Origin: Branchiostoma floridae
Lineage: Eukaryota > Chordata > Leptocardii > Amphioxiformes > Branchiostomatidae
Reading direction: 5' to 3'
Assembly (NCBI RefSeq): GCF_000003815.2
Contig: NC_049994.1
Span: 777,910 to 841,909 of the forward strand
DNA: 64,000 nt
This document shows positions 29,000 to 43,100 of this stretch, one piece after another. Position numbers and translations under genes: made by a program. The notes beneath the pieces were generated by a model, which was not told the origin of the DNA, ran no database searches, and saw nothing but the letters and a program-made list of their open reading frames with translations. How positions within the stretch are numbered: the stretch's first letter is position 1; every line of letters begins with the position of its first letter.

Positions 29000-29338
29000 C
29001 AGGGCTCGAAATACTGGGTGCATGTGCACCCAGGCGCACCCAAAATTTGAGCTGTGCACCCAATTATTTTCTTAGGTAAAATATGTATGTAAAGATATCA
29101 AAGTATACCATATTTTGTAGTAATACTAGTATACAACATATTCTTGACATCTAAGTTAGACAGATGGTAGAAATGTCTGTCATGGTACTTGTTTAAGAAT
29201 TTGATAGCTTGTAACTAAGTTTTACTATTAGGTTATTACTTAAATTTAAGTGGTGCACCCAAAATTTTTTTGGTGCACCCAATTTTTTAAGCTGGGTGCA
29301 CCAGTGCACCTAATTCCAAAAATGAATTTCGAGCCCTG
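29000..29338. mobile_element. TIR element, word TGCACCCA, with 5-bp target duplication
   Basis: Ends: CAGGGCTCGAAATAC and its inverse GAATTTCGAGCCCTG. Flanks: CCCAA at 28995-28999 and again at 29339-29343. The word GTGCACCCA or its complement occurs repeatedly near both ends, including the palindromic pairs GGGTGCATGTGCACCC and GGTGCACCAGTGCACC. The core is AT-rich and non-coding. Confidence 0.85.
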
Positions 29339-30187
29339 CCCAAACATCCTAACGTTTGCGGTTTTGGACCGCGCTACTCATAACATATCGGTCGATCTCG
29401 CTATAACACTACAAAGTAAATGATGTTATTGGGAGAAAATAAGACCCCCCACTGAAGTTTGGAAACACAATTTTCTTTTAAACACCTTTGACAGTCTCTG
29501 TTTACATTGTAAACTAAAACAATTTGATCAGAAAACGTCATACCAGCACATGATGCACGGGGAATTTCCGGCCGTGTTTCAAGCACGCTATCGGCAGCAA
29601 GCAGAAGAATCAGTCGTCCATATAAAATTATTGGATGTAAAACAACAACTAGGACTTTGCTTCCCTTCTAGTATGAGTTATGAGGCTGCAAATTCTCCAA
29701 AACCGCAGAAAATCGTTGGTCAAAACGAAACTTGATCAAAACGACGGTCGGACCGTCATTTTTACTCGTGTTGACAGTTAACCTAGCACCTTATTGCATG
29801 TGTAGCAGATTCAGATCATAAATTGATGTCGTAAACACGTGCAAAATATAATATTTTGAGGTGACGATGGACACGGAAGGCCATTTATATTTTTAGAGTG
29901 TTCATTTTTGGAAATAACCGTAAGATTTTCTCAATTTAGCGGTTTCTAATCTGTAACATACTAGTAGTAGTACAGACGAGCTCTGTTCTGAACTGCAGGA
30001 ACTCGGCATCCGAGCGTCTACATGAGTCTCACAAAAACTTTGTTTTCGGCACTTTTGAACAGGCCTAGGAGTTTATGGACAAAGCAATATTTTTTTTTTT
30101 ATGGACAAAGCAATATTTTTTTTTTCATTTTGTAAATATGTGTTTCAATTTCTAAAGAAAATATGATTTAGCACAAGCTAACAGGGC

Positions 30188-40100: not shown

Positions 40101-43100
40101 AATGGCTAGTCATTGTACATGTAGCAGACATTTTGGTCATTTCATCACAGTAAACTATGTACAGTGAAAGCCAGTTAATTGCACATCGGATAAACGCACA
40201 CTTCTGTTAACTACACGGAATCCCTGAATCCCAAACCCGTGCGGTCCAGCTAGATAACTTCGCATTATTGCACCAGCCGTATAATTGCACCAAATTCACT
40301 GGCAAATAGGCTGTGCAATTAAGCGGCTTCTACTGTATAAAGATTTAAAAAAGTTAAAGCACTGTTGCCATCAGATGCACCTTGAATATGCTGTTTGCTG
40401 TCTGGGTAATTTGTTATGTCATTTAGTCATCGGCTATTGTCAGTGCCACACCAATTTCTTTTTTTGTTTTGGAAAATCCAAACAACGGTGGCACTCCCCA
40501 CTATATGGCTAAGCAAGGAACTCCTTAAGGGCGGAGTCAAGTCTGTTTCCGTCTTTGTGAGCTTGAGCCGCTGCAGGGCCGGCTCCAGGGAGTCTACGAG
40601 GGGCGTTCAAGAAGTAATCCACCTGACCCATTTCCCAAAGGAGGAGATTAATGAAACTTGGTGCAGTTATTAGTCTTTCTCTTCATAGGAATCACCCAGA
40701 GTTATGCATTTCTACCATCGTTTGATGCAGCTCTATACACCGTTTTGTAGGACGCCCCAGGTTGGTCCTGCAACAGATGCCTCATCAATGGCAGAAGAGG
40801 GACGACCAGGTCTGGGAGCTGTTTCCACAGACTTCCGGCCATGTTTGAATTCACAATGCCAGCGTTTTACAAGGTCATATGATGGGGAATCATCACCATA
40901 AGTTTCTTTTATTTCATCAAAAGTCTCATTTGGTATGCGTCCTTTCAAATACAAAAACCGGATCACTGCGCGACACTCAACTGGCTCCATTTCACACCTG
41001 GTCCATTTCACACCTGACTCAATTCAAACACTTTTAAATCAAAAACCAAAATAGTTCAGAGCTGTTTTTTGCAACATAACCCATAGAGATATGAATTATT
41101 ACATATGCAAAATTTCATCTAGATCAGACAACTGGAAGTGGGTCAGGTGGATTACTTCTTGAACGCCCCTCGTAGGGTGGGCATCCTGTGGGAATGTTCA
41201 ACTGGCTCAGGGATGAATATATTAACCACATTTTTGGTGTGTATCAGTTTCCCTCGGGAGTCACAATTTTTACACAGGTCGATCACCTTACAATGTGTTC
41301 TTCTGTTCTTTCTTTTGTATAATTTGTGTTGCTTCTGTGATAATTGTCTGGCATTGGAAAGAGATCAAGGTTTGTGTCTAGCCTTATAATTACAAGAAAA
41401 AGCTTGGCTGCACTTCTTGAAGTTCGTCTGTCATCGTCTATTTTTATCTCACAGAAAATTGTAAGTGGATTACATGATAGACTGTACAATCATGTAAATG
41501 GTATTTTTTCAAGGCCTATGTAATTAATTACAAAAAGGTAAGAAGTGAAGCATTTTAGAATTATGGCAGTGTGATGTTGCCTTTCTTTTGGAAGTATTGG
41601 AAACTCGCTGCCATAAGTATCTTGAATATTCCATGGAAATGGGGGGAAATTCACTATTCAAGAAAGTCTATACAAATTTTAGAATGTTTGGAAAATATAA
41701 TGATTGAAGACTTTTGAAATCAATTCTAAACTTGTATTTGACTCTTAACCTTTTACTCAAATGGTGTTTATTATCAGTCTCTAGTTTCTGTGTGTCGATT
41801 AACTTATTTTGTGACAAGGTCCTTTGTAAGGGTAACTCAGTGCCAAGATGCAAAAGTTCTAATGATCACCTATTAGTAAGAATTACCCATCAAGAATACA
41901 TAGTGTAAAAATAACAGTGAATTGCAGGCCTATTTGAGCTTTCATGAATCAACAAAGGTTCAAACAAACAAACAAAAAGCATTTTCCTTCATTGGTCCTT
42001 TAAAATGGCCTCGTCGTATCCATTTTTGATTATACTGCTGCTGGGATCCCTGTCACGGGTAGGCAGCAGTCGGAATAGTCTTCACACTGTGCTTCCATGC
42101 TGCTTTATCAAAAACTCTGCACCACCCCCCTTAGTCACTCCGTTCCCTTCGCCGCAATACCACTAAGCTAAAATAAAATCCTAGCTAGCACGCTGGATAC
42201 AGTAGACGTGAAACAGCTGTAGGCAGTACACACTGCTTCTGTTTGTGTGCCAATATGGATCATAAGCAAGACGTCTGATGAGTAAAAGTCATTATTAACA
42301 TTTTGTCATCCAGAGCACTTAACGTTTTATACTTGTTACCTTTTACAGTCATGGCATGAAGCATTGGCCAACACAGGAAAATTGAGGCAATGACAAAAGA
42401 ATTTCATTCATGGAAGTGATTAAATACATAGAAAAATGTTCTTACATTTTGGGCAAGTGAAAAGTTGATCCGGGCAAGTAAATTTTTTATGTACTTGTCC
42501 GAAAGGACAAGTGGATTTTAAAAAACTTGTCTAACCCTGACTGCCATGAAATATTGTCTGTGAACAAGATAACTCCAGGTACTTCTGGGGAACTTCTTGT
42601 TTTGATAAATTCTTACTTGTAGCATTTGTTAGTTATGTTTAGGTGAACATCATTAAACATTGATTATGCAAATGAGGACCTTATTTGCACAAATATCAGT
42701 AAATGCCTTTACTAAGTTTTAGAGCCGTCTTTCTTATATATTGTGTATTTGGGTTGAAGAGATGATCAACTAATATGTTTTATGCAAATGAGTACTTATT
42801 TGTATGATTAATGATCTTTATTTGCATGACCTTGCCCATATGGGCTAAATGCAGTAGTTACATAAAACTTTGCTGTAAAGAATCTTTACAGTGGCAGTGG
42901 GAGAGACAGAACAACTAAGGCTATGCTACACTATTAATGACAATGCACATAATACACCTGTTGTAAAGGTTAAGATTATTAGGCAAGGGTACATGTATGG
43001 GGTTGTGGAACTCTAGTTTGATATGAAACTTCTTACATGTTGCATAAAACACAGTCTAATTTTTCCTTCATTTTCCCAGGGTCTAGATGAAGAGAGTAAA

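Follow-up and report, generated by a model that had tools for sequence, protein, structure and literature searches.

Subterminal word classes on a common scaffold in hAT-type elements of Branchiostoma floridae, putative sites for family-specific transposase zinc fingers

That the subterminal repeats of hAT transposons are bound by zinc fingers and differ between families is already known, or expected, from the literature. In Hermes, the transposase finger binds repeats next to the terminus, of which the initial pair at the left end together make a quasi-palindrome, with further copies inside and a different arrangement at the two ends; one N-terminal zinc finger per protomer is carried by an octamer, exact phasing is reported to be crucial, and cleavage suffers from a displacement of one base further from the terminus (PMC10368747). 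Maize Ac/Ds elements likewise combine a short common terminus with transposase-bound subterminal AAACGG repeats and have many deletion or filler derivatives (PMC3260210). The hAT-derived CGG-binding proteins contain hAT zinc-finger domains with diverse DNA specificities, and the motifs of four hAT-encoded proteins correspond to subterminal sequence in the elements from which these proteins come (PMC8097297). Here we describe elements in a window of 64,000 nucleotides from the amphioxus Branchiostoma floridae (contig C16, 777910–841909, of an assembly of 513,431,437 bases in 431 contigs). The window elements are mostly non-autonomous and of hAT type, and several words of about 6–8 bp occupy nearly the same scaffold in them, whereas Hermes has one word (AAGT/AAGC) and Ac/Ds a single hexamer; sister families with an exchanged word at fixed positions are not mentioned in the consulted portion of the Ac/Ds paper. 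The CGG-binding proteins, for their part, are mostly domesticated and come from different hosts, while the families described here are mobile, share one genome and retain their candidate sites. We consider it likely that each word is a putative binding site, specific to its family, for the zinc finger of the family's own transposase.

The words singled out in a preliminary description of the window are present and clustered where it had placed them, and CAGGGCTCGAAAT ends with a palindromic word pair just inside, followed by further copies in both orientations, are found as well. That description had counted at least seven short elements; the common layout stands and the count does not, because target duplications and genomic copies identify several of the supposed elements as paired ends of a single one (30182–30340 with 32257–32364, and the arrays at 37866 with 38743 and at 39752 with 42436). 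Genome-wide, CAGGGCTCGAAAT occurs 5,635 times (2,817 and 2,818 on the two strands) against 4 occurrences (1 and 3) of a reversed control pattern, and the terminus followed by the palindrome gives 1,440 matches against 0 for its control. The words are far above chance and spread through the genome; one scan with the terminus-word pattern gave no match among viral contigs. Inverted pairs of termini less than 1 kb apart, with at most 2 mismatches per terminus, were scored in the window and in 20 stretches of contig C1 picked among the first 100 listed CAGGGCTCGAAAT places to cover pairs. Each of the 30 pairs has one dominant word, TGCACCC (class A) in 9, TGCAGGT (class B) in 17, TGCAAGT (class C) in 2, and ACATGCA and CAACCTG in 1 each, and a few also hold single words from other classes. 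The elements range in size from 282 to 766 bp, and an exact 5-bp target duplication flanks 19 of the 30; one pair has 6 bp, one has 7 bp and nine have none. Short length, inverted termini, 5-bp duplications and the abundance of the terminus characterize these elements as miniature inverted-repeat transposable elements (MITEs).

The ends share a terminus but fall into separate word classes, as had been expected. Among the 100 listed of the 1,440 ends with terminus and palindrome, all on C1, the arms are AGG/CCC in 53, ACC/GGT in 23, ACT/AGT in 9 and others in 15, and they are concordant in 85, against a mean of 39.5 and a maximum of 58 in 10,000 shuffles. A wider set of 80 ends with at most 2 mismatches comprises 65 of class A, B or C and 15 that belong to none of them; words of two classes occur together in 4, every time as B plus one C word. 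In 28 A, B or C elements, scored at eight scaffold sites each with at most 4 bases of slack, the TGCA core is kept at 179 of 224 sites, 158 of these at the exact offset. The core is followed by the element's own triplet at 154 sites, by a triplet outside the A/B/C set at 24 and by that of another of these three classes at 1. Since an element was classed by the word it holds most often, the first of these counts contains some circularity, and it is the last that carries the information. Among the 24 triplets outside the set are TGT in class C, which is the triplet of class D (a single element), and CCT, the class A consensus at the first right-end site. Concordance within elements is strong in classes A, B and C; the claim that every copy within an element has changed together fails for the family with GGAGCGC and TGCGACC words, and for an element in which the words GGACAAGT and GGGCAAGT are mixed.

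The positions of the words are fixed with respect to the terminus. In consensus sequences built from 7 left and 16 right ends of class A, 18 and 19 of class B, and 2 and 3 of class C, left-end words start at 17−, 26+, 36+ and 56+ in all three classes alike, and right-end words at 28−, 39+, 59− and 79− in B and C, a register that A also fits, as does one end of the class D element. A similar but non-identical gauge is seen for the words GGRCAAGT (28, 42, 61, 82), GGTTGC/GCAACC (28, 41, 61, 82, in one element) and GGAGC (29, 39, 60, 80), while the TGCGACC end fits the right-type spacing poorly and the left-type better. Centre-to-centre gaps of about 10–12 and 20–21 suggest helical phasing. A chance value of 0.0017 per family for having this scaffold in common depends on arbitrarily set tolerances, and we give it no weight. 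Because the layout is the same in kind as that of Hermes ends, we read the words as finger sites. The palindromic pairs could fold, and the words might instead be sites for a host protein or act through hairpins; the strict offsets from the terminus at either end, the pairing of one terminus with words that differ by class, and the resemblance to Hermes ends all speak against this, and we regard it as very improbable.

Ungapped comparison of the consensus sequences, left and right ends pooled, locates the differences between classes. Classes A and B differ at 0 of 26 terminal positions, 0 of 32 core positions, 23 of 24 triplet positions and 17 of 65 spacer positions; A and C differ at 0/26, 0/32, 23/24 and 29/65, respectively. 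Fisher p-values for triplets against spacers are 1.4e-9 (A–B) and 5.6e-6 (A–C), serving as guides only, since alignment columns are not independent. At the left end alone, all 12 triplet positions have changed between A and B, and 17 of 21 spacer positions are identical. B and C again have identical termini (0/26) and cores (0/32), with 8/24 triplet and 26/65 spacer differences; all eight triplet changes affect the first base, one at each site, G to A at six and G to T at two, so that what is notable in this pair, to judge from the consensus, is the position of the change and not its rate.

Transposase genes were found for some of these words. A genome search with the hAT dimerisation profile gave 33 matches, and of the 30 loci cut out, three (L032, L033 and L051) have an exact CAGGGCTCGAAAT. 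L032 and L033, on C1 and C9, are class A elements of about 3.81 kb, 99.8% identical across 3,774 aligned bases. They contain an open frame of 719 aa, have class A words at either end and are flanked by the duplications CATAT and TGTCA, with one extra base on one side. L051 has the same type of gene and a right end that matches class C at 83% over 86 bp. The dimerisation domain PF05699 (Dimer_Tnp_hAT) scores 39.5 bits in A and 33 bits at the C locus against a cut-off of 21.4, and PF25431 (zf-C17orf113) scores 38.1 and 44.7 bits against 29.5; the latter, which we take to be a zinc finger of the BED/TTF kind, is a difference from Hermes. A and C are filed under hAT because of this transposase, and their non-autonomous elements are linked to it through shared ends, those of the class A MITE at 29000–29338 in the window being 91% and 94% identical to those of the class A element with the gene, and those of class C through the right end mentioned above. 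A PDB search with transposase A found nothing. Target duplications of hAT elements are usually 8 bp, as they are in Hermes, and a hAT subgroup with 5-bp duplications exists; here they are mostly 5 bp, a length also seen in GGRCAAGT copies, in members of the two-word family and in the C19 element described below.

Of the aligned residues of the A and C proteins, 27/58 are identical in the zinc finger and 212/310 in the core next to it (Fisher p 0.0025); the C-terminal part has 183/308. The two transposases are close relatives, and the divergence of the finger against a conserved core fits a specificity that changed in step with its sites. With the zinc register set by eye to that of Hermes, finger positions −5 and −1 would be K,K in A and P,S in C, and an asparagine four residues before the first zinc histidine, apparently present in A and C, would be absent from the C19 element, the words of which lack TGCA.

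This last element (L065, C19:15205600-15210600) is a complete-looking element of 4,300 bp with its own transposase gene and a 5-bp duplication, ACAAG. It starts CAGGGCTCGAA, has the termini CAGGGCTCGAAGTTAAC and CAGGCCTCAAACTTAAC, and carries GGGAC/GTCCC words (the GGGACA family) at 21, 29, 55, 77 and 88 on the left and at 31, 41, 63 and 84 on the right; no A, B or C word occurs in its outer 400 bases. Its transposase and transposase A are 34% identical across 331 residues, and its finger is more distant (15 identical of 55 aligned residues with C, 8 of 33 with A). A second, partial match lies on C19 about 10 kb away. The protein searches gave 31 and 6 matches, of which seven loci were fetched (L062–L067 and L071) and the remainder judged from the match tables. 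L062 holds a fragment of the gene next to a class A end, and L063, L064, L066, L067 and L071 have no CAGGGCTCGAAAT end within one mismatch. Three long CAGGGCTCGAAAT pairs (L021, L027 and L028) were rejected as A, B or C transposase elements, their frames, read by eye, being a nested pogo/CENP-B-like frame or nothing recognisable. In L021 (456–6523), the pogo/CENP-B-like frame lies, with an assembly gap, between class B ends 6 kb apart, and this is probably one transposon nested in another. Contig C6 holds 11 of the 33 dimerisation matches, all in frames of less than 250 codons. Neither the dimerisation nor the protein searches of the genome found a transposase for class B or for the GGRCAAGT and GGAGCGC/TGCGACC families; class B ends resemble transposase-bearing elements only along 42 bp (79%) and 89 bp (72%).

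The GGAGCGC and TGCGACC words, found in the window at 30188 and 32265, mark the opposite ends of one family. Its window copy starts CAGGGCTACAG with the GGAGCGC end (30182–30340, +, right-type spacing 29, 39, 60, 80), finishes with the TGCGACC end (32257–32364, +, spacing nearer the left type) and has no target duplication. The loci L074 and L075 hold a 1.32-kb element running from a GGAGCGC end to a TGCGACC end, with duplications GAGTC and ACAGT, and the copy at L023 has ACATG. Twelve further copies were fetched from 40 listed by a query that itself guaranteed a GGAGC end; the fetched sequence includes the TGCGACC end in 11 of the 12, no partner end being found in L085, and an exact duplication is present in 8 of these 11. 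Three pieces of the family's interior, about 1 kb in all, recur at 83–95% identity in a separate element at 34886–37026 (+) that has the terminal inverted repeat CAGGCTTTTAGCTAG and, alone among the elements described here, an 8-bp duplication, AACATAAA. The GGCGTAC array at 36924–37000, which the preliminary description (36926–37006) had placed in the shared set, lies at the right end of this separate element; its GTACGCC end fits the scaffold poorly, with GTAC at 30, 37, 66 and 86. Because the interior is shared in this way, ends or interiors have probably been exchanged within the group.

Block replacement, in which whole ends or interiors are swapped between elements through template switching or aborted gap repair, would be one general source of new words, and it does fit the two-word family, in which a GGAGCGC end, the shared interior and a TGCGACC end are combined. 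Coral MITEs (CMITEs) similarly have a conserved interior and different termini, although these are piggyBac-like elements with TTAA duplications and not hAT (PMC2872659). Blocks would, however, have brought their spacers with them, and between the left ends of A and B it is the spacers that are largely retained and the triplets that are all replaced. As the source of the word classes we therefore hold block replacement to be quite improbable, and conversion of sites, which had been suggested earlier, is not needed for A against B.

The reading of the words as family-specific finger sites would work as follows. Each end has a short terminus, either CAGGGCTCGAAAT or a variant of it, with short words set at constant distances inside it, and these words would be the sites to which the transposase of that family docks by its N-terminal zinc finger. 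A shared catalytic and oligomeric architecture would hold terminus and spacing constant, the fixed offsets being the imprint of the transposase oligomer, while the word would track the finger. A change of finger specificity would then alter the same half-word at all sites of a lineage, with the TGCA core kept and the triplet differing (mainly CCC, GGT or AGT). We infer this order of events, as well as the standing of the word classes as separate mobilisation groups. The earlier proposal that specificity and sites changed in step gains from the transposase genes with differing fingers for A, C and GGGACA, and our confidence is slightly higher because the C19 element was found; for class B, the transposase that the proposal calls for was not found.

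Under a founder effect, each class would descend from the ends of one founder, a single tolerant transposase would move several classes and the divergence of the fingers would be incidental. The missing class B transposase would be in keeping with this, as would the off-class word variants, which are common (24 of 179 cored sites), the amplification of a family with different words at its ends, and the transposition of some maize Ds1 elements without canonical repeats (PMC3260210). Left unexplained are the change of nearly all A–B triplets with no change of cores and far fewer of spacers, and the separate transposase genes for three word classes; we think a founder effect unlikely.

Several observations nevertheless weigh against family-specific finger sites. 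Class B, the commonest in the stretch sample, is the one for which the genome searches returned no transposase, and the two-word family is mobile with a different word at each end, so that a rule of one finger, one word does not hold without exception. In the B–C comparison the rate of spacer differences equals or exceeds that of triplets, and the C consensus comes from two left and three right ends only, with some left sites reading TGCATGT. The class C transposase gene contains an assembly gap, its locus has no class C left end in the stretches fetched (L061, L070), and its finger has not diverged from that of A clearly faster than the C-terminal part has (p 0.08). The C19 proteins fall below both cut-offs (19 bits against 21.4 for PF05699, 23 against 29.5 for PF25431), and the right-end words of that element all have the same orientation and form no palindromic pair. 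Finally, the 8-bp duplication usual for hAT is replaced by 5 bp in the 19 pairs.

The remaining features of the window are as follows. The class A MITE (+) is 339 bp long with duplication CCCAA; a class C MITE at 30632–31397 (+, 766 bp, duplication TGATA) is flanked on either side by the ends of the two-word element; and a class B MITE at 32689–32995 (+, 307 bp, duplication AATTT) adjoins a reverse transcriptase fragment (RVT_1) at 33021–33581 and may have inserted into a LINE (long interspersed nuclear element). Another class B MITE, on the minus strand, is divided into an inner part at 37415–37470 (limits approximate) and a terminal part at 39066–39106 by an element with inverted ends ACACCTTTCTCAYGCGGCRGCCATGATAGA at about 37471–39066, which itself holds a GGRCAAGT element of 972 bp (37860–38831, +, duplication AAACC) that joins the arrays at 37866 and 38743. 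A second GGRCAAGT element, of 2801 bp (39739–42539, +, duplication ACTGC), has the arrays at 39752 and 42436 as its ends and encloses a mariner remnant, a Mos1-type HTH_48 match at 40733–41023; further GGRCAAGT copies with 5-bp duplications lie at L077 and L078. Pieces resembling a gene that we take to be SPOP, from MATH-domain matches, occur at 34031–34318, 39354–39725 and 43017–43337; the second matches MATH_2, the third is slightly below the cut-off and the first matches no Pfam family. Several elements would lie in introns of one SPOP-like gene. Positions 1–970 are repetitive and open in several frames on both strands, and an Rfam search of the window gave nothing at gathering thresholds.

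The suggestion that the system had not been described holds in part. Subterminal hAT repeats read by BED fingers under strict phasing are known from Hermes (PMC10368747), and what look new are the exchange of words on a common scaffold and the family with two words. A literature search, outside whose coverage lay most subscription papers and Repbase, returned neither sister hAT families with the same terminus, core and spacing and an exchanged half-word, nor an amplified element whose two ends carry different words, and the string CAGGGCTCGAAAT was not found in it either. One possible, still tentative, extension is a modular address system in which one catalytic machine with fixed docking spacing would exchange its word in half-site steps together with the finger. 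New families would thus be insulated from the parasitic MITEs of their parents, and two-word elements would be hybrids in which the spacing of either end is retained and which depend on two transposases or on a single finger able to recognise both words.

How a DNA-binding enzyme can change its specificity when eight or more sites must follow is an old question. The amphioxus genome offers a natural series for it, with the same scaffold and core, the triplets CCC, GGT and AGT, of which the last two classes differ mainly at the first triplet base, and the more distant GGGACA family. Transposase genes for three words, together with the near-identical pair of class A elements, make the co-evolution of transposase and sites directly testable, and the same is true of escape from non-autonomous parasites.

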